A stretch of 64,000 bases of DNA from Prosopocoilus inquinatus (lineage: Eukaryota; Arthropoda; Insecta; Coleoptera; Lucanidae). The stretch spans positions 682,001-746,000 of the forward strand of contig JAYKNF010000013.1 in the NCBI GenBank assembly GCA_036172665.1, in the 5' to 3' direction. Position numbers and translations under genes: made by a program. Under the pieces are notes generated by a model. It was not told the origin of the DNA and ran no database searches. It saw only the letters and a program-made list of their open reading frames with translations. Shown in pieces: positions 14,095-63,160 of this stretch; within the stretch, counting starts at the first letter, position 1, and every line of letters starts with the position of its first letter.

Positions 14095-14404
14095 CACTTA
14101 GCTCACTACGTCACACTGAAGGCGTCAAGAAGTCGGTCGTCGGGCTGTCTATAATGAACAAATTCGACTTCTCCAGCGTCTTCGAAGATGGAACAAACGA
14201 GAAGGCAGCGTAGAATATAAAATCGACCGGGGATGACTCAGGAGCCAGTCGAGTTCTAATTAGCGATCGTCGAAGTTAGATTTAGTGTATAAAATAAATT
14301 GTTGCAAATAGATTAGATTGTAATCATTATTAAATTACGGTTAAGTTTGTTACCGAGTGTTTTATTCGATTAAATAAATTAATTTAAACCCTAGAAACGT
14401 AACA
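14095..14404 (+). repeat. 5' LTR of Gypsy copy 1
   Basis: Starts TGTGG and ends AACA, 310 bp. It aligns with the copy 2 LTR mainly at the start and over the last ~170 bp. The middle (about 14140-14220) differs strongly from the 3' LTR of the same copy. Confidence 0.8.
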
Positions 14405-14405
14405 G

Positions 14406-14423
14406 TGGTGTCAGGTGTTGGGG
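14406..14423 (+). promoter_or_regulatory. Primer-binding site, probably tRNA-Leu
   Basis: TGGTGTCAGG directly follows the LTR. It matches the pattern complementary to the 3' end of insect tRNA-Leu, inferred from the general form rather than an alignment. Confidence 0.5.
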
Positions 14424-14501
14424 TTTGTGCAAATAAATAAACAATTGAAAGTATATTAAATTTTATCAGATTATTAAATAAGTACAGTATCGGAAAAAAA
14501 A

Positions 14502-15367
14502 ATGGCTACGAGAAAAGTATTGTTGAAAGACTTAAAAGTGGCCGAGTTAAAAACCGAATTGGAAGAACGAGAGCTAGAAACCTGTGGTTTAAAAGGCGCA
14601 CTTCAACAGCGTTTCCGATGCGATTTGTTGACAGCTGGTGAAGATCCAGAGACGTTCCTTTTTGAAATTTCGTGTGGTCCCGCCGATTTTAATAAAATCT
14701 TGAAGGATGAATTTCGAGAACAATCCAGAAATTTAGAGGAAAAGCTTCTAGAACACTCTGAAAATGTAGAGAAAAAGCTTCTAGAACAATCTGGAAATTT
14801 CATGGACGAACTTCGAGAACAATCCGTAAACTTCAAAGATGAGTTGCAAACTAAATTGATGGAACAATCTAGAAATTTGGACGAGAAGTTCCAAGAACAG
14901 TCTGGAAATTTAGAGAAGAAGCTTCTAGAACAGTCCGGAAATTTGAAGGGTCAATTTCTAGAACAGACGAAAGGATTCGAAGATAAACCAGTGGTAAAAA
15001 TATGGGAAGAAACAAGAAACCTGCAAAGTAATGTGGAGGAAATAATCTTCCAGCAGGATAACAAAATCAAAAGTCTGGAACAAATCATGGCGGGGTTGCG
15101 AGTGTTCGGGGATCAGCCACCAGTAGAAACACTAGAAAATAATGAAACTCGAATTGTGGAAGGACCAGCAGAAAATTCGAAATTGAAAATGAAACCACCA
15201 ACGTTCGATGGAAAGTTTTCTTGGCCCAACTACTTCAAACAGTTCGAAGCAGCAGCAAAGGCGAACAGATGGACGGCCAGCGAAAAAGCCACTTCGTTAA
15301 TTGTGGCCTTGAGAGGGGACGCTATCGATGTACTACAGACGATGCAACCAGAGGAACAAGAAGACTT
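14502..15367 (+). pseudogene. Gag, N-terminal part, Gypsy copy 1
   Basis: Starts at an ATG after an A-rich leader, as in copy 2. Residues ~9-40 form a SAP-like helix-turn-helix (Lys-Val-Ala-Glu-Leu-Lys followed by a Leu-Lys-Gly-Ala-Leu block), a motif usually associated with chromatin or DNA contact. Residues ~70-165 are a coiled coil of repeated 11-residue units of Glu-Gln-Ser-x-Asn-(Leu/Phe)-x-x-x-(Leu/Phe) type. The start of the capsid-like region (Phe-Asp-Gly ... Trp-Pro-x-Tyr) follows. The frame is cut at 15367 by the TG...CA insertion and resumes at 18573. Confidence 0.85.
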
Positions 15368-15930
15368 TGTAACGCGCCCGCCTCCCCCTGGCTGTAAATA
15401 TTGATAATAAACAAATAAAATCTGATTTGTTTTAATTATTTAAATGGCTCGTAAATTGTCTAGTGATAAGTGAAAAAGGACCCCTCTGTCAAGCTCGCAT
15501 TAACATAGGGTCTTACCTGGTATTGGTGTGAAATTTGAAAGGAGGGACCTTACAAGAATGAAATAAAAATGCCAGATTAACGTTTAAGACGTATATTGTA
15601 GAGGAAAAAACTCCTGAAGTCCGCAGTCTTAACTGGCCTTACCAGTCCTGCGGAATTCTTGAGCGTAAAACCCTCTACTCGAAAAATTAAAATGATAACA
15701 CAAACCAAAACCAAAATCTTACAAAAGTGAGCCGTAACAAAGTAATCGTAACTTAATAGCGACCTTAAATTCAGTACCGTGACGAAATTCCTATTATCGA
15801 CGCGACTCATTGACATAAACCCCGGAGTGCCCACTCGGCTAGGTCTCGCCGACTGACTTAGGTAGTCCCTTAAAGTCTCCCTGGGAGTAACTAACCACTA
15901 ATTGTTAATGTGGCAAGAATTTTGCATAAA

Positions 15931-17190
15931 CAGAAAATATTACTTTTATTACTTTTATTCGTAATTTTGAGAACACCTCGGGTGTTCCCCGCCAATCAGA
16001 TCCGACAATGTCACGGGGGTCTATCTCTGTAATAATTATAATGGGTGGGTACACCCGTGAGGCAAATGCTTTAACCGACAAGGCACGGCGTAGAATAAGA
16101 GCAGCGGTTTATCACGGTTGTTTAAGTGACCCACATGTGGGGTTCATTGGAATCGCCACCGGGCTTCCACCGTATGATCAATTGACTTTGTTATTTGTTT
16201 TAAAGAGAGGGATCGCGAATCGGTTTCGGACTGGATACCTGAGATCAGAAAATATTACTTTTATTACTTTTATTCGTAATTTTGAGAACACCTCGGGTGT
16301 TCCCCGCCAATCAGATCCGACAATGTCACGGGGGTCTATCTCTGTAATAATTATAATGGGTGGGTACACCCGTGAGGCAAATGCTTTAACCGACAAGGCA
16401 CGGCGTAGAATAAGAGCAGCGGTTTATCACGGTTGTTTAAGTGACCCACATGTGGGGTTCATTGGAATCGCCACCGGGCTTCCACCGTATGATCAATTGA
16501 CTTTGTTATTTGTTTTAAAGAGAGGGATCGCGAATCGGTTTCGGACTGGATACCTGAGATCAGAAAATATTACTTTTATTACTTTTATTCGTAATTTTGA
16601 GAACACCTCGGGTGTTCCCCGCCAATCAGATCCGACAATGTCACGGGGGTCTATCTCTGTAATAATTATAATGGGTGGGTACACCCGTGAGGCAAATGCT
16701 TTAACCGACAAGGCACGGCGTAGAATAAGAGCAGCGGTTTATCACGGTTGTTTAAGTGACCCACATGTGGGGTTCATTGGAATCGCCACCGGGCTTCCAC
16801 CGTATGATCAATTGACTTTGTTATTTGTTTTAAAGAGAGGGATCGCGAATCGGTTTCGGACTGGATACCTGAGATCAGAAAATATTACTTTTATTACTTT
16901 TATTCGTAATTTTGAGAACACCTCGGGTGTTCCCCGCCAATCAGATCCGACAATGTCACGGGGGTCTATCTCTGTAATAATTATAATGGGTGGGTACACC
17001 CGTGAGGCAAATGCTTTAACCGACAAGGCACGGCGTAGAATAAGAGCAGCGGTTTATCACGGTTGTTTAAGTGACCCACATGTGGGGTTCATTGGAATCG
17101 CCACCGGGCTTCCACCGTATGATCAATTGACTTTGTTATTTGTTTTAAAGAGAGGGATCGCGAATCGGTTTCGGACTGGATACCTGAGAT
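15931..17190. repeat. Four perfect 315-bp tandem repeats
   Basis: Units start at 15931, 16246, 16561 and 16876 and appear identical base for base. Because 315 is 3 x 105, an open frame runs through all units (16008-17225, 405 residues), with a 72-residue shadow on the other strand in each. The predicted peptide resembles no protein I know. Each unit contains short hairpins such as GAACACC-TCG-GGTGTTC. The near-zero divergence means recent amplification or gene conversion, or possibly an assembly artefact. Confidence 0.9.
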
Positions 17191-17994
17191 CAGAGGTAGC
17201 ACAGTCTCAGCTGCCCACATTCTAGCCGCACTCCGGTCGGGGAGGCTTGATCGTAGGATGACCCAGATTAGTTGCTAGGGGTCAATATTGAATCACGGGT
17301 TGCGATTCAGGATCGAATCCTTGTCCAGATTCCCTTAGGGCAAGGGCGGTCATGAATCGCGGTATACGTACTCGTGCATCTACACGAGTACGATAAAATG
17401 ACCAGAACATGTTGGTCGGTCGAGAAAATAGTACTCTCAGTCGGAGCCCCCGGCCGAAGTAAATTCTGACGCTCAAAAGGGACGAACAGAGACGTACTAT
17501 AAAGATATGATTTGTAATTGTAAATGTGTTGGCCGAAATTTAGCACTGCCCATTCTGAGATATGGGTACACTTGGGCTTTCAGGGACTCTTCCAGTCGAT
17601 GTCCGGGCACAAACTCCGCCGGCCAAAGCCCGCCCATGGACATCACCAAAATCGTCCCTACGGGAATTGCATAAATAATGTGCCAGAAATACAGATCCCA
17701 GAAAGTGAAGTTTGTCTAGATGTGGTAGATCTACCACCGGAACTGAAAGGCAAACGAGACACCCGCAGGCGCGTCAAATCAGTCCTTAAATTTTAGACTG
17801 AACCCGCGTTCCTACCCCGAGGACGGCGAGACCCCAACAAATCGCCACCCTTACATGAATGTATGACAAATTATATCTGAGTTCCTACTGGTAATGATAA
17901 CACATGCGCCTTTTTGTCTTTAATTAACACACTAACACTTACACTAGGACTTAACGCTATTGGTCACTACCCGTAACTTACGTTAGGAAACTTA

Positions 17995-18122
17995 GGGCCA
18001 GTTTTACAATGACGGTTTAACTTTGAGCCGAAGCTTAAATCCTTCACGACAATTGTTGAAATAATCGTTGCTAAGGGTTCAAGCCTCAGCTCAAAGTTGA
18101 GCCGCATTTGTAAAACTGGACC
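17995..18122. mobile_element. Short MITE, Harbinger-like (TTA flanks)
   Basis: 128 bp with inverted ends GGGCCAGTTTTACAA and GGTCCAGTTTTACAA extending ~40 bp, flanked by TTA on both sides (17992-17994, 18123-18125). The related element at 32163-32287 has a similar end design. Confidence 0.7.
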
Positions 18123-18568
18123 TTAGTAACTTAGGAAATAATTAATTTACATGAGCTTAGAAAATAATTAAAAATGGACTTAGAAACAAAACACGCTCGG
18201 TCGTCCGATCTCGGAGCTATTCCGTTTTCGACTGCCCTTCTTGTCCCTCGAATTCCCTATTGCGGTTCTCCTTACACCCCTCCGAAAAAACAGCAAAAAC
18301 CACTTCTCTACGAATGTTACTTATCTTAAATCCTAAAATATCCTACGCCCTAATTGACTTAATAACTCATGTGTCTATCCGTGGCGTTCCCACCCGTTTG
18401 GCGTTTCAAAATGCCCATACTTATCAACCCTCTGCAAACTTTCGCTATCTTGGCGCCAACCGCATTAGCAACACCACGAATCGACGGAAAAAAAATAATG
18501 ATAAAATAAACTAAAAATAAAAACGTCTTAAACCACAAAAATATAGCTGACCGGCTAGGACTGTTTCA

Positions 18569-19245
18569 ACTTCAACAAGCTGGTGAATAGGATGGAAATA
18601 CGTTACGGACATGCCCATCTCACCGAGGTATACCATGCGCAGTTGAGGAATCGCTGTCAGAAATCCGGAGAAAGTCTTCAGGAATTCGAAGCGGACGTAG
18701 CGCGTCTGGCCCAGTTGGCATATCCCACAGCTCCTGTTGAATTCCTCAAATGTTTGACGGTGCAGACCTTCATAGATGGAATCCGTGACCCAGACAACCA
18801 GCAGGCATTGAGAATGACCCATCCGAAGACGTCCAAGAACGCATTGGCTTATGCCTTGGAATTTGAAGCGGCGAGACGAGTTTCAAGAGGGCATGTCAAG
18901 GTGCGAGCGGCTATGGACTTCCAAGAGGAAGAAGAGGAAGAATCCGCTAACGCCAAATTGGGATCTGCTATAAAGGAGCGACCCAGGGAATATGCCACCG
19001 CCGAGGATGTTCGCCGCATTGTGGAACAGGTCTTCAAGCAGAAGAAGCCGCTGGAATTGCCAGGAGGAAGGACATGTTCGCAGGCGATGTCCAAAGCCCA
19101 GACAGGATCCAAGGAAGCCACAGTTAAACTAAGCCGGGTCGGTCCAGAGGGGCAAACGTCGACCCGTACTCAGAGGCCCCCAAAGACGAAATCCAAACAA
19201 GTAATATCCCTACGGCAGTTAACCAGTAGTGTCTTCTTCCATTGA
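18569..19245 (+). pseudogene. Gag, C-terminal part, Gypsy copy 1
   Basis: Picks up the gag frame right after the insertion and runs through the capsid-like region (Arg-Met-Glu-x-Arg-Tyr-Gly ... Leu-Gln-Glu-Phe-Glu-Ala) and an acidic Glu-rich stretch. No Cys-Cys-His-Cys zinc knuckle is visible. The frame ends at a stop caused by a ~10-bp deletion relative to copy 2 just before the protease. Confidence 0.85.
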
Positions 19246-19893
19246 TGATATTCCTCACACCATGTTATTGGATACGGGTGCGACGAAGACCATCCTAAGA
19301 CCCAACGTCATCAAGTCAGCTGGACGCACCGAGCCGACCAAGTGGAAACTGAAAACTGGAACTGAAACATCAGCAACTGTCCACGGTGAAGTGGAGGTTA
19401 TCATCACCATTGGCCCAACTCCAATAAAACACCGTGCACTGGTAGCAGACATAGAGGAAGAGCCAATTTGGGTATGGACGTCATGTGTGCCCACGGGTTT
19501 CAATTGGACTTACAGCGTGGCGTGATGGCGGTCAATAATGAGGAGTTGGATCTACATCAACGAGGAGACGTGGCCGCTCGTGTAGTCCTCGCTGAAGACG
19601 TTGTATTACCCAGCAGGACTGAGGTTATCGTCGACGCAAAACTGAACGGTGCTTCTCAAGATGGGCAAGTCATTGTGGTTGAACCTAAAACTGATGATCA
19701 GAAGATTGGAAGAGGAGTCCTCGTTTGGAAAATGTTGTTGACGGCGAAGAAGGAAGTACCTGTTCGGCTGATGAACGTCAATTGTTTCTCCGTCAATTTC
19801 AAGAAAGGAACCATCTTGGGAAGCTGCACCATGATGGTGTCCTCCATCTCCCGCCAACTAGGAACAACGTGCCAGAAGCGAAAGTCCCAATGA
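19229..19893 (+). pseudogene. Retropepsin region, Gypsy copy 1
   Basis: The aspartic protease active site Asp-Thr-Gly-Ala is present near 19270 in a frame shifted from gag. One missing T near 19470 shifts it again into 19468-19893. This second segment still carries the protease-to-reverse-transcriptase linker, and in this copy the linker is continuous. Copy 2 has lost 38 bp here, so the comparison suggests the ancestor had one uninterrupted gag-pol frame. Confidence 0.8.
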
Positions 19894-22800
19894 AATTATG
19901 GGAAATGGTTATGTTAACAGCCCAGGAATTGACTCCAGACCAGAAGACAAAAGCAAGGAATCTGATCGGCCGCTATCAAGATGTATTCGAGGCAGAAAAT
20001 GGATCCAAGGGAAGAACTGTTGTCGTAAAACACAAAATAGGGACTGAAGAAGAAAGACCTATTCGTCAAGCTCCAGGCGATTACCGTGGGCAAAGCGTGA
20101 GGAAGCAGAACGCATTATTCGCGAGATGGAAAAGGATAATGTAATAGAACCATCAAGCAGCCCGTGGGCGTCACCAGTAGTGCTTGTGAAGAAGAAGGAT
20201 GGGTTCACCAGGTTCTGTGTAGACTACCGGTTACTCAACAATGTCACCAAGAAGGACAGCTATCCCCTGCCAGGGATTAATGATACCCTGGATACCCTGA
20301 CCGACTCAAAGATCTTCTCAACTTTGGACTTAAAGAGTGGATATTGGCAAGTGGAGCTGGCGCCTGAAGATCGAGAAAAGAGGCGTTTTCCATTGATATG
20401 GATCTGTGGCAGTTCACACTGATGCCATTCGGGTTATGTAATGCTCCAGCGACATTCGAGAGGTTAATGGAGACGGTTCTGAAAGGTCTGTCCTGGACAA
20501 CGTGCATGGTGTACCTTGACGACATAATTGTCGTAGGAAAGACGTTCGACGACCACCTGAGGAACCTCGAAGGAGTGTTCCAGCGGCTTAACAGAGCTGG
20601 ACTAAAGCTTAGCCTCAAGAATTGTCACCTGTTCCAGAAGGAAGTGAATTACTTGGGGCACATTGTTAATGGAAACGGAATTGCCGTGGACCCTGTGAAT
20701 ATTCAGGTGGTGAAAGACTGGCCAACTCCCAGAAATAAACACGAAATAAGGAGTTTCCTTGGCCTGTGCACTTACTATCGGCGCTACATTTCTGGATTTG
20801 CAGACATTGCTAAGCCGTTGACAAAACTCACTGAAGAAGGTCGTCCATTTGAATGGGACCAACAGTGTCAAACTGGTTTTGAACAACTAAAGCAGTACTT
20901 GATTAGTGCTCCTATTCTGAGTTATCCTCTCCAGGAAGGCAAGTTCGTCGTGGACACAGATGCTAGCGACGTTGGGATCGGTGGAGTAGATACAAGAGGG
21001 GCAAGAGAAGGTGATCGGCTACTTCAGTAAAGTCCTATCAAAGCCGGAACGAAACTATTGCGTCATAAGAAGGGAATTGCTAGCCGTCGTAAAAACGATA
21101 GAACATTTCTACAAGTACTTGTATGGTAGACGCTTCCTCCTGAGGACCGACATGCCGCCCTAAAATGGCTTCTCCGTTTCAAGAACCCAGAAGGGCAAGT
21201 TGCACGTTGGATCGAACTACTTCAGGAGTACGATTTTGAAATTCAGCATCGGGTAGGAACTAGCCATCGAAATGCCGATGCTTTGTCGAGAAGACCCTGT
21301 GCCGAAGACTGTAAGCACTGTAGTCGTTTGGACGAGAAAGTAGCCACGACTGCGAGGACAGCCATTGTTGACGACAAATGGCAAGGCGAAGAACTGCGAA
21401 GAAACCTTGAGGACGATCCGGATTTGAAATTAGTGCTAGAATGGAAAAGCAGGGACGCGAGGCCTACCTGGGAAGAGGTAGCACCATGTGCACCGTCCGT
21501 AAAATCATACTGGGCGCAGTGGGACTCCATAGTGTTGGAACGTGGTCTTCTGAGACGAAGCATAGAGAATCAGCAAGGCACGGAACAGAAGACACAGTTA
21601 CTAATCCCCAAGAATAGGGTGCCAGAAGTTCTGAGGGAACTTCGAGATGGAACTTCGAGAGGGCATCTGGGAATTAAGAAGACTATGGAGAAGGTGCGCG
21701 AAAGATTTTACTGGGTGAACTGCAAGGAAGACGTGAACGATTGGTGCAGAAAGTGTGCAGTCTGCGCAGCCAGTAAGGGTCCCCACAGGCGAGGAAAGGC
21801 TACCATGAGACAGTACAACGTTGGAAGTCCTTTTGAGAGAGTTGCCATCGATGTAGCCGGCCCATTCCCAGAAACGAATGGTGGAAACAAGTACATCGTC
21901 GTGGTAATGGACTACTTTAGCAAGTGGGTTGAAGCTTACGCCCTACCTAACCAAGAGGCAGTCACTATTGCGGAAGTCCTTGTCAGGGAATGGATCAGCC
22001 GGTATGGTGCACCTATGGAACTGCATTCAGACCAAGGAAGGAACTTTGAATCGGCCTTGTTCAAGAACGTATGTACTCTGCTCGGCGTACGAAAAACTAG
22101 AACATCTGCACTCCACCCACAGTCGGACGGAATGGTGGAACGGTTCAATAGAACCATCAACCGACATTTGTCCAAGGTCGTTTCCGATCATCAGAGGGAT
22201 TGGGACACGTACATTCCCCTGTTTCTAATGGCATACCGCTCGTCCGTTCATGAGACAACAGGGGAGACTCCAGCGAAAGCGGTATTCGGGCGAGAGCCGA
22301 GACTGCCCTGCGACCTGAAGTTTGGTGTGAAGCCTGGCGAAGTCTCTGCCGACGAAGATTACGTGAGCAAATTACGCAGGAAAATGGACGACATCCACAA
22401 CCAAGTGCGTCACAATATACAGACGACCAGCGATCGGATGAAGGAGCACTATGACATCAACGCTCAACACGGGGGATACTGGAGCACTGGTCTAGCTTTA
22501 TAACCCCCATAGACGTCGAGGTTTGTCCCCAAAACTGCAGACCTCTTGGGAAGGTCCTTACAAAGTGATGAAATGGATCAACCACGTCATTTACCGCATC
22601 AAGAAGGTCCCCCATGGCAAACCCAAAGTAATCCACTTCAACCGGATAGCCCCTTACCATGCAAAAGCAGATGAAGGGGCAGTACAAAGTTTCCGAAGTG
22701 AACTTCGAAACCTTCATGTCTCATCACGCCGAAGGAAGCAAGGCACGGTTTGGAGTGACCACGGAGAAGCAACAAGATCTCTTTAAAGTGCCACTGGAGT

Positions 22801-23207
22801 ACAGTCTGGCCCACTTCGTAGCAAGTGGTAAACCTGACTATCAAAGTATGTGGAGAGCCCTATGTAGCCTGAGAAGACAGCTAATAGAGAACCACCAAAC
22901 GAAGTTGGCCATCCCCAAATTGGGCTGCGGATTGGACGGACTAGACTGGAGAGTAATTTGAAGCATGCTGGAAGTCATCTTCCACAGAACGGGAATTGAA
23001 GTCCTAGTCTGCAGCCATCACCCACAGGCAACAGTCAGCAACAGCAAAACCGTAGACTGCTACTTCTTCCAGACGGGAAATTGCAAGAATGGGCCAGCAT
23101 GTAGATTCCGACATCCTCCTTCAAGACTATCACCAGGAACATTTCGAAACGAAACGTTTTTAAGAAGGGGGCAATGTGGCGAGCCACTCACCACTACGTC
23201 AGACTGA
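19894..23207 (+). pseudogene. Pol (RT, RNase H, integrase) with broken macro domain, Gypsy copy 1
   Basis: Readable pieces at 20126-20422, 20398-21030, 21283-22503, 22523-22786, 22659-22961 and 22965-23207. Reverse transcriptase motifs include Tyr-Leu-Asp-Asp at about 20513-20524. Integrase shows the His/Cys zinc region and an Asp, Asp, Glu core. After integrase the macro domain is present but lacks 56 residues (in-frame deletion of 168 bp at about 22821) and has a TGA at 22959-22961. The CCCH finger (23056-23115) survives. Frameshifts relative to copy 2 lie near 19870, 20080, 20380, 20988, 21150 and 22485. The product would be non-functional. Confidence 0.85.
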
Positions 23208-23498
23208 AGGCGTCAAGAAGCCGGTTCATTATTATGCGTCATCGGCCGTCACGCCACCATCGAACAAACTTGAATTTTCCAGCGTTAGAAGAAACGCGAA
23301 GGTATCAAAGGATTTAAAATCGGCCGGAGTGGACTCAGGAGCCAGTCGAATTTTAACAGCGATCGTCGAAGTTAGATTTTAGTGTGTAAATAAATTGTTA
23401 AAATAAATTAATTTGTAAGCATTATTAAATTACGGTTAAGTTTCTATTGGGATGTTTTTATTCGTTAAATAAATAAATTAAACCCTAGAAATGTAACA
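23175..23498 (+). repeat. 3' LTR of Gypsy copy 1
   Basis: 324 bp, TGTGG...AACA, preceded by the purine-rich tract AAGAAGGGGGCAA (about 23162-23174). Its middle region (ATTATGCGTCATCGGCC...) matches the copy 2 LTR better than the 5' LTR of its own element does. Confidence 0.85.
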
Positions 23499-37167: not shown

Positions 37168-37817
37168 CGTGTCGTCAGTGGCGCACCCAAGGGGGGGGGG
37201 GGGCACTGGGGCACGTGCCCCCCCCCCATATGCGCCGGTCGTGTTTGTTTCACACCAAGCCAGTCAAATAAAATCGTTGTTTTAACTTTTATCAAAACAC
37301 TATCATTCATTACACTATGTATTAACTAATATTGTTGAAAATGAATTGTGATTGTATTGAAATGTATGTAGATCGGACGAAGTTGAAATCATGAATTTCT
37401 TGAACAATGAGTAAAAAATCCCTATTATTACAATTCTAAGATCACAACTCTATGGTCAAAACTATCCTCGGCCAGTGGAAGCCAGGGACTGCTAGCTAAC
37501 TGTAAATAATAAAAAAATATTTGGGATAATACCGTTACGTTAGGTACTTAGGTCGCAATTTGCTTTGGTACAGTGTTTTTTATTTGCGACCGGCAAGTTT
37601 TCGACTGAACACTGGCAACACTACGCGATGCGCAAAAACACGCAGTACGCGTTCGTATTTTTGTCGTGAAAGTTTTACATTTTTTAAACGTTTCTGTGTT
37701 CATTGTTCCTTAGTTCATTTTGAATTATTTCTCTTCTTATTTAAGTAAAGATACTTTTAAATCACGTAAGTAAAACTAAAGTTACTTTATTATTCCTTTT
37801 CTTCGTTGAGATAATAT

Positions 37818-38160
37818 TGTGGCGAGCCGCTCAGTGCTGCGTCACGCTGAGGGCGTCAGGAGGTCGGTTCGCTGTTGTGCGTCATCGGCCATCACGCCAC
37901 CGGGGCCTACACCGGGGTCACTTCGAACAGACTGGGATCTTCCCGCATAGAGAGTTCCAGACGGCGGCGAATGATATAAAATCGCCCCGGGTTGACTCAC
38001 CAGTCAGTCGAATTCGAACAGCGAACGTCGAAGTTAGATTTTAGTGTGTAAATAAATTGTTACAAATAAATTACTTTTTAAGCTTTATTAAATACGGTTA
38101 AGTTTGTATCGAGTGTTTTATTCGTTTAAATAAATAAATTAAAACCCTAAAAACGTAACA
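37818..38160 (+). repeat. 5' LTR of Gypsy copy 2
   Basis: Starts TGTGGCG, ends GTAACA. A TATA-like ATATAAAAT lies at about 37974 and AATAAA-type signals follow near 38050, as expected for U3-R promoter and polyadenylation. Confidence 0.95.
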
Positions 38161-38161
38161 G

Positions 38162-38179
38162 TGGTGTCGGTGTGCGGGT
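38162..38179 (+). promoter_or_regulatory. Primer-binding site, probably tRNA-Leu
   Basis: TGGTGTCGG starts one base after the LTR. The pattern resembles the complement of an insect tRNA-Leu 3' end; copy 1 has TGGTGTCAGG, which fits better. Confidence 0.5.
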
Positions 38180-38257
38180 TTGTGCAAATAAATAAACAAT
38201 TTAAAGTAAATTAAATTTAATCAGATTATTAAATAAGTACAGTATCGGAAAAAAACA

Positions 38258-40354
38258 ATGGCTACGAGAAAAGTGTTGTTGAAAGACTTAAAAGTGGCCG
38301 AATTAAAAACCGAATTGGAAGAACGAGAGTTAGAAACCGGTGGTTTGAAAGGCGCACTTCAACAGCGTCTCCGATCCGATTTGTTGACAGCTGGCGAAGA
38401 TCCAGAGACCTTCCTTTTCGAAATTTCGTGTGGTCCCGCCGATTTTAATAAAATCCTGAAAGATGAACTTCGAGAACAATCCAGAAATTTAGAGCAAAAG
38501 CTTCTAGAACAATCTGGAAATTTCAAGGACGAACTTCGAGAACAATCTGGAAATTTCAAGGACGAACTTCGAGAACAATCCAGAAATTTGGACGAGAAGT
38601 TTCAAGAACAGTCTGGAAATTTACAACAATCTAGAGACTTAGACGAGAAATTTCGAGAGCACTCCAGAAATTTCAACGAGAAATTTCTAGAACAAACAAA
38701 AGGACTCGAAGATAAATTAGTGGTAAAAATATCAGAAGAAACAAAGAACCTGCAAGAAAATGTGGAGGAAATAATATTTCAGCAGGATAACAAAATCAAA
38801 AATCTGGAACAAATCATGGCGGGGTTGCGAGTGTTCGGGGATCAGCCACCAGTAGAAACACTAGAAAATAATGAAACCCGAATTGTGGAAGGACCAGCAG
38901 AAAATTCGAAATTAAAAATAAAACCACCGACGTTCGATGGAAAATCTTCTTGGCCCAACTACTTCAAACAGTTCGAAGCAGCAGCAAAGGCAAACAGATG
39001 GACGGCCAGCGAAAAAGCCACTTCGTTAATTGTGGCCTTGAGAGGAGACGCTATCGATGTGCTACAGACGATGCCGCCAGAGGAACAAGAAGACTTCGAC
39101 AAGCTTGTGAATAGGATGGAAATGCGTTACGGACAGGCCCATCTGACCGAGGTATACCATGCGCAGTTGAGGAATCGCTGTCAGAAATCCGGAGAAAGTC
39201 TTCAGGAATTCGAAGCAGACGTTGCGCGTCTGGCCCAGTTGGCATATCCCACAGCTCCTGTTGAATTCCTCAAATGTTTGACGGTGCAGACCTTCATAGA
39301 TGGAATCCGTGACCCAGACAACCAGCAGGCATTGAGAATGACCCATCCGAAGACGTCCAAGAACGCATTAGCTTATGCCTTGGAATTTGAAGCAGCGAGA
39401 CGAGTCTCAAGAGGGCATGTCAAGGTGCGAGCGGCTATGGACTTCCAAGAGGAAGAAGAGGAAGAATCCGCTAACGCCAAGGTGGGATCTACTATAAAGG
39501 AGCCAGCCAGGGAGTATGCCACCGCCGAGGATGTTCGCCGCATTGTGGAACAGGTCTTCAAGCAGAAGAAACCGCTGGTGTGGCCAGGAGGAAGGACATG
39601 TTCGCAGGCGATGTCCAAAGCCCAGACAGGATCCAAGGAAGCCACAGTTAAACTAAGCCGGGTCGGTGCAGAGGGGCAAACGTCGACCCGTATTCAAAGG
39701 CCCCCAAAGACGAAAGCCAACCAAGTAATATTCCTACGGCAGTTAACCAGCAGTGTCTTCGTGGATGTTACCATTGATGACATTCCTCACACCATGTTGT
39801 TGGATACGGGTGCGACGAAGACCATCCTAAGACCCGACGTCATTAAGTCATCTGGACGCACCGAGCCGACCAAGTGGAAACTGAAAACTGCAACTGGAAC
39901 ATCAGCAACTGTCCACGGTGAAGTAGAGGTTATCATCACCATTGGTTCAACTCCAATAAAACACCGTGCACTGGTGGCAGATATAGAGGACGAGGCAATT
40001 TTGGGCATGGACGTCATGTGTGCCCACGAGTTCCAATTGGACTTAAAGCGTGGCGTGATGGCGGTCAATAATGAGGAGTTGGTTCTACATCAACGAGGGG
40101 ACGTGGCCGCTCGAGTAGTCCTCGCTGAAGACGTTGTATTACCCAGCAGGACTGAGGTTATCGTCGACGCAAAACTGGACGGTGTTTTTCAAGATGGTCA
40201 AGTCATTATGGTTGAACCTAATACTGATGTTGTTGACGGCGAAGAAGGAAGTACCTGTCCGCCTGATGAACGTCAATTGTTTCTCTGTCAATATCAAGAA
40301 AGGAACAATCTTGGGAAGCTGCACCATGGTGTCCTCCATCTCCCGGCAACTTGA
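38258..40354 (+). CDS. Gag-protease polyprotein, Gypsy copy 2
   Basis: Begins at an ATG after an A-rich leader. Residues ~9-40 form a SAP-like motif. Residues ~68-150 are a coiled coil of 11-residue units, fewer and partly different from copy 1. Residues ~215-380 are capsid-like (retrotransposon gag fold, with the Trp-Pro-x-Tyr and Arg-Tyr-Gly landmarks). A Glu-rich acidic stretch follows, then a retropepsin with Asp-Thr-Gly-Ala at ~39800. No zinc knuckle is seen. The natural frame should continue into RT, but a 38-bp deletion near 40228 diverts it into an unrelated tail ending at 40354. Gag should assemble particles and protease would mature them. Confidence 0.9.
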   Translation: MATRKVLLKDLKVAELKTELEERELETGGLKGALQQRLRSDLLTAGEDPETFLFEISCGPADFNKILKDELREQSRNLEQKLLEQSGNFKDELREQSGNFKDELREQSRNLDEKFQEQSGNLQQSRDLDEKFREHSRNFNEKFLEQTKGLEDKLVVKISEETKNLQENVEEIIFQQDNKIKNLEQIMAGLRVFGDQPPVETLENNETRIVEGPAENSKLKIKPPTFDGKSSWPNYFKQFEAAAKANRWTASEKATSLIVALRGDAIDVLQTMPPEEQEDFDKLVNRMEMRYGQAHLTEVYHAQLRNRCQKSGESLQEFEADVARLAQLAYPTAPVEFLKCLTVQTFIDGIRDPDNQQALRMTHPKTSKNALAYALEFEAARRVSRGHVKVRAAMDFQEEEEEESANAKVGSTIKEPAREYATAEDVRRIVEQVFKQKKPLVWPGGRTCSQAMSKAQTGSKEATVKLSRVGAEGQTSTRIQRPPKTKANQVIFLRQLTSSVFVDVTIDDIPHTMLLDTGATKTILRPDVIKSSGRTEPTKWKLKTATGTSATVHGEVEVIITIGSTPIKHRALVADIEDEAILGMDVMCAHEFQLDLKRGVMAVNNEELVLHQRGDVAARVVLAEDVVLPSRTEVIVDAKLDGVFQDGQVIMVEPNTDVVDGEEGSTCPPDERQLFLCQYQERNNLGKLHHGVLHLPAT

Positions 40355-42731
40355 AACAAACGTGCCAGAAGCGAAAGTCCCAAAGAAATTATGGGAAATG
40401 GTTATGTCAACGGCCCAGGAATTGACTCCAGACCAGAAGACAAAAGCAAAGAATCTGATCGGCCGTTATCAAGATGTATTCGAGGTAGAAGATGGATCCA
40501 AGGGAAGAACTGATGTCGTGAAACACAAAATAGAGACTGGAGAAGAAAGACCTATCCGTCAAGCTCCAAGGCGATTACCGTTGGCAAAGCGTGAGGAAGC
40601 GGAACGCATTATTCGCGAGATGGAAAAGGATAATGTGATAGAACCATCAAGCAGCCCGTGGGCGTCACCAGTAGTGCTTGTGAAGAAGAAGGATGGGTCC
40701 ACCAGATTCTGTGTAGACTACCGGTTACTCAACAATGTCACCAAGAAGGACAGCTATCCCCTGCCACGGATTGATGATACCCTGGACACCCTAGCCGGCT
40801 CAAAGATCTTCTCAACTTTGGACTTAAAGAGTGGATATTGGCAAGTGGAGCTGGCGCCCGAAGATCGAGAAAAGACGGCGTTTTCCATTGGTATGGGTCT
40901 GTGGCAGTTCACAGTGATGCCATTCGGATTATGTAATGCCCCAGCGACATTCGAGAGGTTAATGGAGACGGTTCTGAAAGGTCTGTCCTGGACAACGTGC
41001 ATGGTGTACCTTGATGACATAATTGTCGTGGGAAAGACGTTCGACGACCACCTAAGGAACCTGGAAGGAGTGTTCCAGCGGCTTCGCGGAGCTGGCCTAA
41101 AGCTTAGCCTCAAGAAGTGTCACCTATTCCAGAAGGAAGTGAATTACCTGGGGCACATTGTTAATGGAAATGGAATCGCCGTGGACCCTGTGAAGATTCA
41201 GGTGGTGAAAGACTGGCCAACTCCCAGAAATAAACACCAAATAAGGAGTTTCCTTGGCCTGTGCACTTACTATCGGCGCTACGTTCCTGGATTTGCAGAC
41301 ATTGCTAAGCCGTTAACAAAACTCACTGAAGAAGGTCGTCCATTTGAATGGGACCAACAGTGTCAAATTGGCTTTGAACAACTAAAGCAGTACTTGGTTA
41401 GTGCTCCTATTCTGAGTTTTCCTCTCCCGGAAGGCAAGTTCGTCGTGGACACAGATGCTAGCAACGTTGGGATTGGTGGCGTACTCTCCCAGATACAAGA
41501 GGGGCAAGAGAAGGTGATCGGCTACTTCAGTAAAGTCCTATCAAAACCGGAACGAAACTATTGCGTCACAAGAAGGGAATTGCTAGCCGTCGTAAAAACG
41601 ATAGAACACTTCTACAAGTACTTGTATGGTAGACGCTTCCTGCTGAGGACCGACCACGCCGCTCTAAAATGGCTTCTCCGTTTCAAGAACCCAGAAGGGC
41701 AAGTTGCACGATGGATCGAACGACTTCAGGAGTACGATTTTGAAATTCAGCATCGGGCAGGAACTAGCCATCGAAATGCCGATGCTTTGTCGAGAAGACC
41801 CTGTGCCGAAGACTGTAAGCACTGTAGTCGTTTGGACGAGAAAGTAGCCACGACTGCGAGGACAGCCATTGTTGATGACAAATGGCAAGGCGAAGAACTG
41901 CGAAGAGACCAGGAAAACGACCCGGATTTGAAATTAGTGCTAGAATGGAAAAGCAGGGACGCGAGGCCTACCTGGGAAGAGGTAGCACCATGTGCACCGT
42001 CCGTAAAATCATACTGGGCGCAGTGGGACTCCATAGTGTTGGATCGTGGTCTTCTGAGACGAAGCATGGAGAATCCAGAAGGCATGGAACAGAAGACACA
42101 GTTACTAATCCCCAAGAATAGGGTGCCAGAAGTTCTGAGGGAACTTCACGATGGAACTTCGGGAGGGCACCTGGGAGTTAAGAAGACTATGGAGAAGGTG
42201 CGCGAAAGATTTTACTGGGTGAACTGCAAGGAAGACGTGAAGGATTGGTGCAGAAAGTGTGCAGTCTGCGCAGCCAGTAACGGCCCCCACAGGCGGGGTA
42301 AGGCCCCCATGAGACAGTACAACGTTGGAAGTCCTTTTGAGAGAGTTGCCATCGATGTAGCCGGCCCGTTTCCAGAAACGAATGGTGGAAACAAGTACAT
42401 CGTCGTGGTAATGGACTACTTTAGTAAGTGGGTTGAAGCTTACGCCCTACCTAACCAAGAGGCAGTCACTATTGCGGAAGTCCTTGTCAGGGAATGGATC
42501 AGTCGGTATGGTGCACCTATGGAACTGCATTCAGACCAAGGAAGGAACTTTGAATCGGCCTTGTTCAAGAACGTGTGTACTCTGCTCGGCGTCCGAAAAA
42601 CTAGAACAACTGCACTCCTACCACAGTGGACGGAATGGTGGAAAGGTTCAATAGAACCATCAACCGACATTTGTCCAAGGTCGTTTCCAATCATCAGAGG
42701 GACTGGGACACGTACATCCCCCTGTTTCTAA
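40229..42731 (+). pseudogene. Pol: reverse transcriptase, RNase H, integrase core, Gypsy copy 2
   Basis: In the frame after the 38-bp deletion. RT runs ~40570-41130 with the catalytic Tyr-Leu-Asp-Asp at 41007-41018. RNase H follows (~41430-41700, starting Val-Asp-Thr-Asp-Ala-Ser, with the usual Glu and Asp). Integrase has the His-His-Cys-Cys zinc region (~42150-42275) and the first two core acidic residues (Asp in Ile-Asp-Val-Ala-Gly and Ser-Asp-Gln-Gly). A missing C near 42627, present in copy 1, shifts the frame just before the third catalytic residue, so the ending at 42731 is artefactual. Enzymes look otherwise intact. Confidence 0.9.
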
Positions 42732-43891
42732 TGGCATACCGCTCATCTGTTCATGAGACAACAGGGGAGACTCCCGCGAAAGTGGTATTCGGGCGAGAGC
42801 CGAGACTGCCCTGCGACCTGAAGTTTGGTGTGAAGCCTGGCGAAGTCTCTGCCGACGAAGATTACGTGAGCAAATTACGCAGGAAAATGGATGATATCCA
42901 CAACCAAGTGCGTCACAATATACAGACGGCCAGCGATCGGATGAAGGAGCACTATGACATCAACGCTCAACACGGGGGATACCAACCTGGAGCACTGGTC
43001 TGGCTTTATAACCCCCAAAGACGTCGAGGCCTCTCCCCAAAATTACAGACCTCTTGGGAAGGTCCTTACAAGGTGATGAAACGGATCAACGACGTCGTTT
43101 ACCGCATCAGGAAGGTCCCCCATGGCAAACCCAAAGTAATCCACTTCAACCGGTTAGCCCCTTACCATGGAGAAGCAGATGAAGGGACAGTACAAAGGGC
43201 GCAAGTTTCCGAAGTGAACTTCGAAACCTTCATGTCTCATCACGCCGAAGGAAGCAAGGCACGGTTTGGAGTGACCACGGAGAAGCAACAAGATCTCTTT
43301 AAAGTGCCACTGGAGTACAGTCTGGCCCACTGCGTAGCAGAAGACCTGAAAATGTCCAAAGGAATCGCTCAGGTGTTTAGGAAGAAATTTGGCCAAATCG
43401 AGGAGCTACGAAGACAGCATCCCATGGTAGGCAAGAGCTTGCAGATCATTGATTCGACGGCAGATCGGAGGCGCCACGTGCATTATTTAGTCACTAAGAA
43501 GACATCAAGCGGTAAACCTGACTATCAAAGTATGTGGAGAGCCCTATATAGCCTGAGGAGACAGCTAATAGAGAACCATCAGATGAAGTTGGCCATCCCC
43601 AAATTGGGCTGCGGATTGGACGGACTAGACTGGAGAGTAATACAAAGCATGCTGGAAGTCATCTTCCACAGAACGGGAATTGAAGTCCTAGTCTGCAGCC
43701 ATCACCCACAGGCAACAGTCAGCAACAGCAAAACCGTAGACTGCTACTTCTTCCAGACGGGAAATTGCAAGAATGGGCCAGCTTGTAGATTCCGACATCC
43801 TCCTTCAAGAGTATCACCAGGAACATTTCGAGACGAAACGTTTTTAAGAAGGGGGCAGTGTGGCGAGCCGCTCAGTGCTGCGTCACGCTGA
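42626..43891 (+). CDS. Pol C-terminus: integrase end, macro domain, CCCH zinc finger (Gypsy copy 2)
   Basis: Continues pol after the 1-bp deletion: Val-Glu-Arg-Phe-Asn-Arg with the catalytic Glu, then the integrase C-terminal domain (to ~43180). From ~43265 to ~43710 follows a macro domain of the Poa1p/TARG1 (OARD1) type. It has an Asp-Leu-Phe start, Ser-Leu-Ala-His-Cys-Val-x-Glu-Asp, Lys-Met-Ser-Lys-Gly-Ile, a Thr-Lys-Lys segment, and Pro-Lys-Leu-Gly-Cys-Gly-Leu-Asp. The Lys and Asp correspond to the catalytic pair of human TARG1. A CX7CX5CX3H zinc finger follows (43741-43800). The stop (43889-43891) lies 33 bases inside the 3' LTR. Such cellular enzymes remove ADP-ribose from acidic residues; the role in the element is unknown. 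Confidence 0.85.
   Translation: MDGMVERFNRTINRHLSKVVSNHQRDWDTYIPLFLMAYRSSVHETTGETPAKVVFGREPRLPCDLKFGVKPGEVSADEDYVSKLRRKMDDIHNQVRHNIQTASDRMKEHYDINAQHGGYQPGALVWLYNPQRRRGLSPKLQTSWEGPYKVMKRINDVVYRIRKVPHGKPKVIHFNRLAPYHGEADEGTVQRAQVSEVNFETFMSHHAEGSKARFGVTTEKQQDLFKVPLEYSLAHCVAEDLKMSKGIAQVFRKKFGQIEELRRQHPMVGKSLQIIDSTADRRRHVHYLVTKKTSSGKPDYQSMWRALYSLRRQLIENHQMKLAIPKLGCGLDGLDWRVIQSMLEVIFHRTGIEVLVCSHHPQATVSNSKTVDCYFFQTGNCKNGPACRFRHPPSRVSPGTFRDETFLRRGQCGEPLSAASR
43846..43858 (+). promoter_or_regulatory. Polypurine tract of Gypsy copy 2
   Basis: AAGAAGGGGGCAG immediately precedes the 3' LTR, the usual plus-strand primer position. It is also coding sequence for the pol C-terminus. Confidence 0.8.
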
Positions 43892-44201
43892 GGGCGTCAG
43901 GAGGTCGGTTCGCTGTTGTGCGTCATCGGCCATCACGCCACCGGGGCCTACACCGGGGTCACATCGAACAGACTGGAATCTTCCCGCATAGAGAGTTCCA
44001 GACGGCGGCGAATGATATAAAATCGCCCCGGGTTGACTCACCAGTCAGTCGAATTCGAACAGCGAACGTCGAAGTTAGATTTTAGTGTGTAAATAAATTG
44101 TTACAAATAAATTACTTTTTAAGCTTTATTAAATACGGTTAAGTTTGTATCGAGTGTTTTATTCGTTTAAATAAATAAATTAAAACCCTAGAAACGTAAC
44201 A
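43859..44201 (+). repeat. 3' LTR of Gypsy copy 2
   Basis: 343 bp, TGTGG...AACA, differing from the 5' LTR at about three positions. Confidence 0.95.
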
Positions 44202-44287
44202 ATATGTATACATAGCAGATTGAACTGATTGCGTATTTGATTTGAAGATAAAATTTTGATTACCAGTTTATCCACAATGAGCGAGAA

Positions 44288-47631: not shown

Positions 47632-47633
47632 TA

Positions 47634-49728: not shown

Positions 49729-49730
49729 TA

Positions 49731-50700: not shown

Positions 50701-51030
50701 TGTTACGAATTTGGGGGTTCACAAATTATAGTCGTTTAAATGGCAGAACACTTTAATTACAAGCTGTCGCTTTACACAATTAACAACACAATAGTAATGG
50801 GCTTGTCTATTGAATAACACTTTTACAAAATGTACTTACTATTTATTCGAGGTATGAACCCTTCGCTTGCCAACCACTGACTAAACTCCTGGCGGACCAT
50901 ACGGCTTTTATAGCAGAGCCCTCTTTTGCTCGAACTTACTAGAAGGCCCCGTAGCTGCGGTAACGTTCTGTGACGCAAGGTGGCGAGACTGATGCTAAAA
51001 TAGGTTTGTTTGTACGTCACGGCTGTAATA
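50701..51030 (-). repeat. 3' LTR of Gypsy remnant 3
   Basis: 330 bp starting TGTTACGAATTT on the plus strand and ending GTAATA (ancestral GTAACA). Closely similar to the solo LTR at 62830-63160. The adjacent CCCCCCCTCTTAG (51033-51045) is the complement of a polypurine tract. Confidence 0.85.
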
Positions 51031-51150
51031 CTGCCCCCCCTCTTAGTTCTGTTCTAATAGAATACGGAGCCAAACGGTCGATGTGGATCACTTTCTTCTT
51101 CCCACGAGGTAGCTTTTGTATTCTATAGACCACGTCATTGATCCTCTTAA

Positions 51151-52167
51151 TTATTGATAGGGTCCATCCCAAGGCGCTTGAAGTTTGGGGCACAGACCAC
51201 GAGTCCTTCTAGGGTTATACAGCCACACCTGGTCCCTTTCTTGGAATCTTGTTTCATTGGCTCGTCGATCGTAGCAGGTCTTCATTTTGTCTGTCGCCAA
51301 ACTGATGTTACGACGGACGTATTCGTGAGTGTTCATTAAACGGCATTCAAGTTCTTGCGAGTATTCACTTAGTCCCAGTCGAGTTTCTGGTCGCCCAAAT
51401 TTTAAGTCACAAGGCAGACGCATTTCTCTTCCGAGCAAGACACTGTATGGGGTTCGTTTAGTAGTGTCATGCTGAGCAGAACGGTACGCTATCAGGAAAA
51501 GGGAAAGATGTTCGTCCCAGTCCCGTTGGTTCTTCGAAACATCTTTAGCCCAACGTATTTCCAAGGTCCTATTGAAACGCTCCAACATTCCATCTGCCTG
51601 TGGGTGCAAGGGAGTTGTTCGCGTTTTTAAAATGCCTAGTAACTTGGTCAATTCCTGGAAAACGTGTCCTTGAAAGTTCCTGCCTTGGTCGGAATGGATT
51701 TCAATGGGTACTCCAAATCTTGTTATCCAATTCTCTATCAAGGCACTCACAACGGTTATTGACTCTTGGTTTGGCAAAGCATAACTTTTTGGCCATTTGG
51801 TGAAATAATCGGTCACTACTATAATGTATTTGTTTCCATGGTTGGTTTCTGGAAGTGGGCCGGCTATGTCAATGGTAATCCTCTCGAATGGTGCTCCAAC
51901 GTTGTAAGGATGTAATTTTTCGCGGGTCCGGAAACTGCAGCACATGTAGTACACCTGGAACACCAATTTTCCACTCAGTTCTACATTCGCCCAGTAGAAC
52001 CTTTCTCGTACTTTCGACAGTGTCTTGTTGATGCCCAAATGTCCACCGGACATACCGTCATGAATCTCTTCCAGGACCTCAGCGACCCTTACCCTTGGAA
52101 GCACGAGTTGGTCCTTCATCAGACTTCCATCAGGTGTTTCCCATTTTCTCATTAGCAACCCCTTCAT
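51151..52167 (-). pseudogene. Integrase, Gypsy remnant 3
   Basis: 338-residue open frame. The His of the zinc region is seen in Gly-Gly-His-Leu-Gly, but the Cys pair region is altered (substituted near 51950). The catalytic core has Asp (Ile-Asp-Ile-Ala-Gly), Asp (Ser-Asp-Gln-Gly-Arg-Asn) and Glu (Leu-Glu-Arg-Phe-Asn-Arg), and the C-terminal Trp-Leu-Tyr-Asn-Pro block follows. The frame continues toward the LTR out of phase. It would join the cDNA to the host chromosome if intact. Confidence 0.85.
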
Positions 52168-53560
52168 TAACTCCCAAGAATCCCATTGTGCCCAATAAGT
52201 TTTAAATACTGGATTCTTTCCCGATATCTCTACCCACGTGGGACGTTGCTGTCTTTCCTTCCATTCAATTATGGTTTTTATTTCAGGATCTTCTGGCTAT
52301 TCCCTCTTAATGGTCTCGGTTTGCCACCTATCTACTATGGCGCCAGTTCTTCTGTCGGCATTATTATGGACTCGACCTGGACGATGTTCGATTGTAAAAT
52401 CGTACTCCTGTAATCTTTCTATCCATCTGGCAAGCTGGCCTTCTATGTTCTTAAACTGAGGCAATCACTTCAATGCTGCATGGTCTATTCGAAGATGAAA
52501 CTGCCGGCCATAAAGATACTTGTGAAAATGTTCTGTTGCCTTCACTATGGCAAGAAGCTCCTTTCTGGTTACACATTAGTTCCTTTCAGCTTTCGACAAA
52601 ACTTTACTGAAGTAACCAATAACACGTTCTTGCCCGTCTTGCACTTGTGACAATACGCCTCCAATCCCGTAGTTGCTAGCATCACTATCAATAATAAACT
52701 TGCCCTCTTATCTTGGATACGACAATATAGGACCAGTCACTAAAAGATCCTTCAGATTGTCAAAGGCTTCTTGGCAGTCCTCACTCCGGAAAAATGTGGA
52801 TTTTCCTTTGATCAGTGCATGTAAAGGTTTCGCTGCCCTTGCAAAGTCCTTAACGAATCGTCTGTAATAGGTGCAGAGCCCCAAGAAACTTCTTAATTCA
52901 TGCACATTTTTCGATGGTGGCCAGTTCTTAACAGCTCAAATCTTGTACGGGTCGGTCGCCACTCCTGCCTCAGATGCCATGTCCAAGGTAATTCACTTCC
53001 TTCTAGAAAAACTTGCATTTGGCTGGATTTAATTTTAGCTCCGCCTCTTCATCTTTGGAAAACGTTTCTCGGATTTGCAAGGTGTTCTTTGAAGGTTCTT
53101 CCAACCACAATCACATCATCTAAGTATACGAGGCAAGTCTTCCAGCTAAGTCCACGCAATACCAATTCCATCAGCCGCTCAAAAGTGGCTGGTGCGTTGC
53201 ATAGACCAAAAGGCATCACCTTGAACTGCCATAGACCAGTACCTGTGGTGAAGGCTGTCTTTTCCTTGTCTTCGGGATGTATTCCAACTTGCCTATATCC
53301 ACTTTTCAAGTCCAAAGTAGAGAACCAACTCGCACCGGATAAGGTGTCAATGGTGTCATCAATCCCAGGAAAGAGATAGCTGTCCTTTTTCGTGATATCA
53401 TTTAATCGCCTGTAGCCCATACAGAAACGCGTGCTGCCATCCTTTTTAGTTACAAATACGACAGGAGATGCCCATGGTCTTTTCGATGGTTCAATAATTC
53501 CTTGGCCCTGCATGTTCTTGATTAACTTGTCAGCCTCTTCTCTCCTCGTCAATGGCAGTC
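52168..53560 (-). pseudogene. Reverse transcriptase and RNase H, Gypsy remnant 3
   Basis: RT is readable at 53552-53049 with Trp-Ala-Ser-Pro-Val-Val, Phe-Ser-Thr-Leu-Asp-Leu-Lys-Ser-Gly-Tyr and the catalytic Tyr-Leu-Asp-Asp. It continues at 52905-52708 (Arg-Ser-Phe-Leu-Gly-Leu-Cys-Thr-Tyr-Tyr-Arg). RNase H fragments are visible at about 52690-52370 in several frames. At least three frameshifts and a few stops separate the pieces. Confidence 0.8.
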
Positions 53561-53585
53561 TTCGTGCGGGTTAACGAATTGGATT

Positions 53586-54410
53586 CTAATCGTCAGTGTT
53601 TATTCTGTGCTGAACAATGTCCGTCCGGGTTAAGTCTTCATCGGTAAAGGCGAAGATTCTTTTGAATTTTCGAGACAGTCCTCTTATGTCTTCTGTTTCC
53701 ATGGATGCTAACGATGTTGTTACCTCTTCCAGCAATTTCTCTAGTAGTGGTGGTAGAGTGTCAGACTGATGCCGAGCGGATGCATTGTTTACTCGAATGT
53801 GGTTCACAGAAGCAATTGCTTCACATTTGCCCACCACTGTTACGCTGTGTATGGTCACTGGGTAACTGTTGACATTTGCAAGACGAATAGGAATTGTTTC
53901 TTGGATCTTCACCAGAGTCCCAACCAGTAAAATTCCTTTCTTGGCGCTACTGATCTAAGTTGGCTCTATGATTCCGGCAGGATAGCTGCTAAGATTGCCT
54001 TCTAACTTCGCCAGAATTAACTTATCGGTTAAGGCTGGAATGTATATACTTTCTTCCAATATTACTTTTAAAACTGTAGATAAATTTCCAATAACGTGGA
54101 GAGGTATTTCTTCAGATCCAATTCGTAGAACTTTATCTTTTAAATCTACAACCAAGCCGTTTTTATTCATGAAATCCACTCCCAGTATGAAGTCGTCAAC
54201 AATGTCTGCCACTAACACTCTGTGTCTTAATTTCATACTTCCAATCTTCATGTCAATTTCGGTTCCATCACAAACTGGAGTAACCTCGCCAGTAGCTGTT
54301 TGGATGTGATATACCTTTCCATTATTTACTAGCTTCCATTTCGGTAAAAGTTCTGTTTTCATGATGGACACATTCGGTCCGTATCAATTGTGAATTGGAA
54401 AGATCCCTCA
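53586..54410 (-). pseudogene. Protease and linker, Gypsy remnant 3
   Basis: The protease flap and C-terminal segment (Phe-Ile-Leu-Gly-Val-Asp-Phe-Met) are clear at 54371-53955. The active-site triad near 54385 reads Asp-Thr-Asp rather than Asp-Thr-Gly and is followed by a frameshift, so the enzyme would be dead. 53912-53586 is the linker to RT. Confidence 0.75.
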
Positions 54411-62829: not shown

Positions 62830-63160
62830 TGTTACGAATTTGGGGTTTACAAATTATAGTCGTTAAATTTCAAAACACTTTAATTATAGGCTGCTGCTTA
62901 CAACAATTAACAACACAATTGTAATGAGCTTGTCTATCAAATAACACTTTTACAAAATGTATTATCTATTTATTCGAGGTACGAATCCTTCGCTCGCTAA
63001 CTTTATAACTAACTACTTCTGACGGATCGTACGGCTTATATAGCAGAGCCCTCTATTGCCGGAACATGCTAGAATGATCGAGTAGTTTCCGGTCATGTTC
63101 TGTGACGCAAGGTGGCGTACTGATGCTAAAAATAGATCTATTTGCGTGACGGATGTAACA
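62830..63160 (-). repeat. Solo LTR of the Gypsy remnant 3 family
   Basis: 331 bp, TGTTACG...GTAACA, closely similar to 50701-51030. No internal sequence on either side, so it arose by LTR-LTR recombination. Flanks GTAT and ATGT do not form a perfect duplication. Orientation is given by similarity to the minus-strand element. Confidence 0.8.

Follow-up and report, generated by a model that had tools for sequence, protein, structure and literature searches.

A TARG1-type macrodomain joined to the integrase end of a Gypsy retrotransposon lineage found in beetles

The window, a stretch of 64,000 nucleotides from contig JAYKNF010000013.1 of the lucanid beetle Prosopocoilus inquinatus, harbors a Gypsy (Ty3-type) long terminal repeat (LTR) retrotransposon (37818-44201, + strand) whose Pol continues past the end of the integrase into a macrodomain of the TARG1/OARD1 type and then into a CCCH zinc finger. 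Computation shows that this fusion is shared with related elements, that the macrodomains involved form one clade, that most relatives keep the pair of residues with which TARG1 performs catalysis, and that the domain is under some selective constraint. That a macrodomain was captured and then retained by these elements we regard as close to certain; the fuller explanation, in which it serves as an integrase-linked eraser of ADP-ribose in the nucleus, we hold to be moderately probable, with rivals that partly overlap.

The structure of the element is that of the Ty3/Gypsy group. Its LTRs (37818..38160 and 43859..44201, both +) are 343 bp long, run from TG to CA, agree at 340 of 343 positions and are bordered by a 4-bp target-site duplication, ATAT, read directly off the flanks at 37814..37817 and 44202-44205; between them, protease, reverse transcriptase (RT), RNase H and integrase follow one another in the Ty3/Gypsy order. 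According to the list of open reading frames (ORFs) and Pfam, a gag-protease ORF (38258..40354, +) encodes a SAP domain, coiled repeats and an aspartyl protease, and the pol ORF (40134..42731, +) encodes RT, RNase H and the zinc-binding and core domains of the integrase. A further ORF (42626..43891, +), which extends into the 3' LTR, supplies the C-terminal part of the integrase (Integrase_p58_C, PF22938; 43061..43162, +; 52.3 bits against a cut-off of 27), the macrodomain (43262..43705, +) and the zinc finger (43742..43798, +), and contains the polypurine tract, again read directly (43846..43858, +). The original prediction had put macrodomain and integrase in the same frame, which holds for the integrase C-terminal part and fails for the catalytic core, since in this copy the frame breaks within the integrase, upstream of its C-terminal part. 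Because a second copy in the window (ORF 21283-22503) and relatives read through at this point, we interpret the break as a lesion of the first copy. No errantivirus env ORF lies between pol and the 3' LTR, a space filled by the macro-CCCH tail, and a Pfam scan of 43199-43888 at E up to 1 returned nine families, only of macro and finger types, and no chromodomain.

Among solved proteins, the closest match of the tail by sequence is human TARG1 (phmmer E 9.7e-30, over residues 11-151 of 216), the next macrodomain being 5m3i (DarG) at E 2.1e-5, and the predicted model has a TARG1-type fold, in agreement with the TARG1/OARD1-like domain originally predicted. In the suggested check with hidden Markov models of Macro families, Pfam Macro stays at 19-21 bits, under its cut-off of 22. 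The sole NCBIfam match, DarG, reaches 43 bits against a cut-off of 250; with both scores below their cut-offs, general family models thus miss this macrodomain. Identity to human TARG1 (also known as C6orf130, of the ALC1-like class) is 38%, and to 14 beetle host copies 41% on average. The window macrodomain shares with TARG1 its predicted fold, the Lys84-Asp125 dyad (codons at 43496..43498 and 43619..43621, +, by alignment), Gly43 and Gly123; residue 125 is Asp in the sequence of TARG1 in the PDB and is given as Glu125 in PMC7050489 (this and the other PMC records are cited here from excerpts). Unlike TARG1, it forms the C-terminal module of a retrotransposon Pol and is followed by the CCCH finger. 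The spacing of that finger, C-x7-C-x5-C-x3-H, is as was claimed and fits the CCCH pattern (C-x7/8-C-x5-C-x3-H), with a Pfam zf-CCCH score of 27.4 bits (cut-off 20.5); the predicted model gives it no confirmation, the blocks there having a pLDDT (predicted local distance difference test) of 61-69. A chance match or artefact is ruled out by a TARG1 E-value of ~1e-29 together with the occurrence of the same fusion in many independent records.

Two protein searches reveal how widely the fusion occurs, one with the tail (235 candidates passed, 89 of them listed) and one with the integrase region (1598 matches, 120 listed). Tail and integrase C-terminal part are found together in 23 of the 89 listed tail-bearing proteins, and the named hosts of such integrase-linked tails are Molorchus (Cerambycidae), Harmonia (Coccinellidae), Pyrocoelia (Lampyridae), Gonioctena (Chrysomelidae), Aromia, Callosobruchus, Diabrotica and Leptinotarsa, the last four of which we also take to be beetles. 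The linkage to pol in several species anticipated by the original prediction is thereby borne out in named records of four beetle families, and neither of the findings that it had said would speak against it, the lack of a macrodomain match or a fusion confined to this locus, was made. From the integrase side, 25 of the 120 listed matches carry the macrodomain (phmmer, E 1e-3), and all 25 are within the top 28, the remaining three being truncated (P0111), internally deleted (P0112) or broken (P0123). None of the other 92 listed matches has a macrodomain, and 89 of these stop no more than 10 residues past the integrase match (the exceptions are P0161, P0214 and P0141). Searches of prokaryote and virus contig collections gave 14 and 1 pattern matches, respectively, with zero confirmed as a related locus.

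A few of the records bear unexpected names or partners. The macro-bearing proteins P0106 and P0117 are filed under Erysiphe pulchra, a mildew, where we suspect insect contamination, and a further insect-type Gypsy protein, P0129, is named after a Rickettsia endosymbiont; all three probably reflect contamination of public assemblies with host DNA. In an annotated protein of the scarab Holotrichia oblita (P0028), a macrodomain of the element type is fused to a region matching PF05225, presumably a pipsqueak-type helix-turn-helix; the protein is probably a chimeric gene model or a nested insertion.

Phylogenies of both parts of the protein point to a shared history. In the pol tree (57 rows, made up of the window plus 56 of the 60 in P0100-P0159; a larger tree had 109 rows, after 12 of 120 with coverage under 60% were dropped), every macro-bearing row falls into one clade with support of 100/99. 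The macro-free P0128 sits inside this clade (89/75), and a tree that places it outside is not rejected (p-AU, from the approximately unbiased test, 0.231); therefore, one gain followed by one loss and one gain alone both fit. The macrodomains of the elements, Holotrichia row P0028 included, likewise form a single clade in two trees (99/99 and 100/98), the first of 91 rows (34 named near-duplicate or truncated rows were removed by hand, as was P0027, which is short) and the second with 24 of these 91 removed as long branches or near-duplicates and with P0028 put in the element group after the first tree. This clade is placed among insect TARG1 rows in trees composed mostly of such rows, with no MacroD or PARG rows. 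The phylogeny proposed as a check gave one element clade that fits more than one donor lineage: a topology uniting the element rows with human TARG1 survives the test (p-AU 0.436), and in the first macro tree the backbone is open and the bootstrap unsettled. Pol and macro distances among 20 rows are correlated (Mantel r 0.68, with 0 of 9999 permutations as high), as expected if the two had travelled together. A related Gypsy element elsewhere in the window (51017..54341, - strand; frame-broken, with pol 50-55% identical) has no macrodomain, its integrase ending in HIDRLAPY plus 14 residues at its polypurine tract, which is the layout expected before capture. The captured and fused host domain of the original prediction is accordingly upheld, being TARG1-type by sequence and predicted fold, integrase-linked in four beetle families and forming one macro clade. 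An origin from a seadornavirus macrodomain is not supported; the TARG1-like macrodomain of Banna virus VP5 (P0089) joins P0060, a protein with double-stranded RNA-binding Pfam domains (98/93), and not the element clade.

Within that clade the macrodomain has lasted longer than the finger. In an alignment of 41 element rows and 49 other rows (among the latter P0028, unnamed records and the row for Banna virus), 34 of 41 and 47 of 49, respectively, have Lys84 together with Asp125, and the window copy has both, as originally predicted; taken singly, element rows keep Lys84 in 38, Asp125 in 35, Gly43 in 40 and Gly123 in 33 of 41 cases. TARG1 Ser35 is Ala in the window macrodomain, as in 44 of the 49 non-element rows. 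Of the 25 macro-bearing rows, 15 show the finger pattern; among the other ten, P0100, P0105 and P0127 are truncated, P0114 is degraded, and six (P0108, P0109, P0116, P0117, P0122 and P0126) group with the broken P0123 in a single clade (100/98). Because the finger is missing where the macrodomain persists, we consider the latter the more lasting part of the tail. Across 15 full-length relatives, mean pairwise identity is highest in RT-RNase H (0.78), followed by integrase (0.72-0.75), the macrodomain (0.49), two linkers (0.34-0.35) and the finger (0.31, from 65 of 105 pairs); the macrodomain is thus constrained, yet less so than the integrase.

The second copy allows a comparison within the window. 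It is decayed, occupies about 14200..23498 (+) and is split at about 15368-18568 by an insert of ~3.2 kb; its integrase is a single ORF across the site at which the frame of the first copy breaks, and its macro part (about 22725-23040, +) has one stop and an in-frame deletion of ~56 codons that includes the Lys84 codon, with the CCCH finger downstream. Between the two copies, the ratio of nonsynonymous to synonymous change (dN/dS) over codons that can be compared is 0.28 and 0.41 for two parts of gag-protease, 0.27 for both RT-RNase H and the integrase core, and 0.25 for the integrase C-terminal part. The macrodomain gives 0.15 (5 synonymous versus 3 amino-acid differences over 90 codons, with 57 codons left out; Fisher p 0.013), and macrodomain plus finger 0.30 (p 0.019), the finger and end alone having 2 and 2 differences, too few for a ratio. 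Such values, along with long open frames, the persistence of the macrodomain across a deep clade and its higher identity than the neighboring linkers, make it very improbable that the tail is a functionless passenger, a host fragment tolerated after fusion, despite the loss of catalytic residues in some lineages and the internal deletions of P0112 and the second copy.

We propose that a Gypsy lineage, so far named from beetles, once captured the TARG1/OARD1 macrodomain of an animal, most likely an arthropod, which would have been inserted between the end of the integrase and the polypurine tract, the CCCH finger arriving with it or nearly so. Made as the C-terminal part of Pol and most likely staying joined to integrase, the macrodomain would enter the nucleus with the integration complex, bind ADP-ribose or poly-ADP-ribose (PAR) and strip ester-linked ADP-ribose from the integration complex itself, from its nucleic-acid ends, or from PARP1-marked chromatin at the cut target site. 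Its activity, its tethering to integrase, the nuclear target and the benefit to the element are what we infer. Integration nicks DNA, which would draw PARP1, so an eraser carried on the integrase would find its substrate where the element integrates. The excerpted literature on TARG1 describes a protein that interacts with PARP1 and detaches both ADP-ribose, from acidic residues and the termini of nucleic acids, and entire polymers (PMC7050489), and that binds PAR and RNA and moves in a PAR-dependent manner upon DNA damage (PMC5928194). In Drosophila without PARP-1, 5 of the 8 mobile elements that changed significantly went up (PMC7712786, in the part consulted).

Several observations weigh against such an eraser. 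One or both of Lys84 and Asp125 are missing in 7 of 41 element rows (P0020, P0021, P0022, P0024, P0121, P0124 and P0125, the loop alignment of P0021 being doubtful), implying that catalysis is dispensable in some elements, and four of these (P0022, P0024, P0124 and P0125) make up one small clade. The macrodomain evolves faster than the integrase, and the macrodomains of beetle hosts resemble one another more (mean 0.58, 14 rows) than do those of the elements. The macro dN/dS comes from 8 differences, and one of the two copies compared is decayed. From the excerpts of the literature, a proposed damage-response role of TARG1 was not reproduced in PMC5928194; and in PMC7712786 the other 3 of the 8 Drosophila elements went down, ten further rises (nine in the gypsy superfamily) were non-significant, and the authors allow that the effect of PARP-1 may be indirect.

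The main rival, by virtue of a macrodomain position that equals that of the chromodomain in chromoviruses, the integrase C-terminus (PMC3605345, excerpt), is a domain that reads and does not erase, tethering the integrase to chromatin that carries ADP-ribose where it is open or damaged and thereby steering integration, much as the chromodomains of those elements do. Gly43, a mutant of which served as a probe of the TARG1 ADP-ribose site, is kept more often than Asp125, and the same source (PMC5928194, excerpt) cites a PAR-dependent recruitment of TARG1 to sites of DNA damage. A pure reader would not need the two catalytic residues that persist together in most rows, and Gly123, the other binding residue, is kept in fewer rows still; we therefore consider such a reader rather unlikely.

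To our knowledge, insects have few PARPs and lack the vertebrate antiviral set, which speaks against a cytoplasmic counter-defense in which the domain, putatively released from Pol, would shield element RNA and proteins from antiviral-type ADP-ribosylation, as viral macrodomains do. Several arthropod viruses have similar macrodomains, by sequence (Banna virus VP5, 35% identity) or by predicted fold (Kadipiro virus VP8, 41%; woodlouse iridescent virus, 34%; virga-like viruses, 24-29%), and for this reason we keep the cytoplasmic role in view; the faster change of the element macrodomain relative to the host copy also speaks for it. Overall, we judge it doubtful. As selfish genomes with a similar macrodomain, these viruses resemble the elements; they are not known to have an integrase, and the Banna virus macrodomain lies outside the element clade. 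Fish retroviruses, too, have macro domain ORFs (PMC4977317, citing Basta 2009; excerpt).

We see little likelihood that macrodomain and finger are an add-on for binding element RNA. Human TARG1 binds RNA (PMC5928194, excerpt), the best solved sequence matches of the finger are those of CPSF4 (CPSF30), and the Gag frame of the first copy (38258-40354) contains no CCHC knuckle pattern; set against this, the six relatives of the P0123 clade keep the macrodomain without a finger, and knuckle-like CxxCx4H stretches in P0106 and P0117 show that the finger is no simple knuckle replacement. Replacement of the Gag zinc knuckle by the CCCH finger is not supported, given those stretches in P0106 and P0117 and a knuckle-like stretch that this element has in another frame near 39580.

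Other features of the window concern the frames of the element and its neighbors. A knuckle-like stretch, WCGQEEGHVRRRC, occurs near 39580 in a frame neighboring Gag, and the second copy (18583-19245) has nearly the same Gag frame there. The protease shares the frame of gag, and RT is read in a different one (40134-40354), with similar overlapping matches in the second copy, and in relatives such as P0120 protease through CCCH form a single ORF; the frame difference could be either a programmed frameshift or a shared lesion. The insert of the second copy contains an ORF of four near-identical repeats of ~100 codons (16008-17225). Directly past the 3' LTR are ORFs (44567-46878) that presumably resemble a hAT-type transposase, and inverted arms of 332 nt, 97% complementary and with 1435 nt spacing (47632-49730), are possibly a foldback or DNA element. 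Farther along are a 571-aa ORF (60310-62025, -) and an LTR-like stretch (62823-63158) with 82% identity to 50695-51028.

Macro domains in retroelements are already known, the precedent being the epsilon-like endogenous retroviruses of teleosts; these are vertebrate retroviruses in which the macro domain is described as additional ORFs (PMC4977317, citing Basta 2009; excerpt). Insect LINE (long interspersed nuclear element) retrotransposons with a captured RNA-virus helicase are likewise insect retroelements that gained an accessory enzyme domain, but are non-LTR elements with another enzyme and a viral donor (PMC5563155, excerpt). Among the papers listed by our literature search on macrodomain or OARD1 and retroelements, which left most subscription journals outside its scope, none was an account of a TARG1-type domain fused to a Gypsy integrase. 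Closest in layout are chromoviruses, in which a chromatin-related domain was added at the integrase C-terminus (PMC3605345, excerpt); a chromodomain reads histone methylation, whereas the macrodomain here would read or erase ADP-ribose. Tentatively, the fusion may represent the ADP-ribose counterpart of the chromodomain, an integrase-tethered eraser or reader that senses and edits PARP-made marks at the site and time of integration. A TARG1-type domain on the end of the integrase, with its dyad kept in most relatives, suggests that these elements deal with ADP-ribose signaling as they insert into the genome. Because relatives without the macrodomain, without the finger and with a lost dyad all exist, natural controls are available. 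If true, the proposal would link the integration of retrotransposons to ADP-ribose signaling directly at the genetic level, a link kept over a deep clade, and it opens to experiment the question of whether LTR retrotransposition in insects is restrained or guided by PARP activity.
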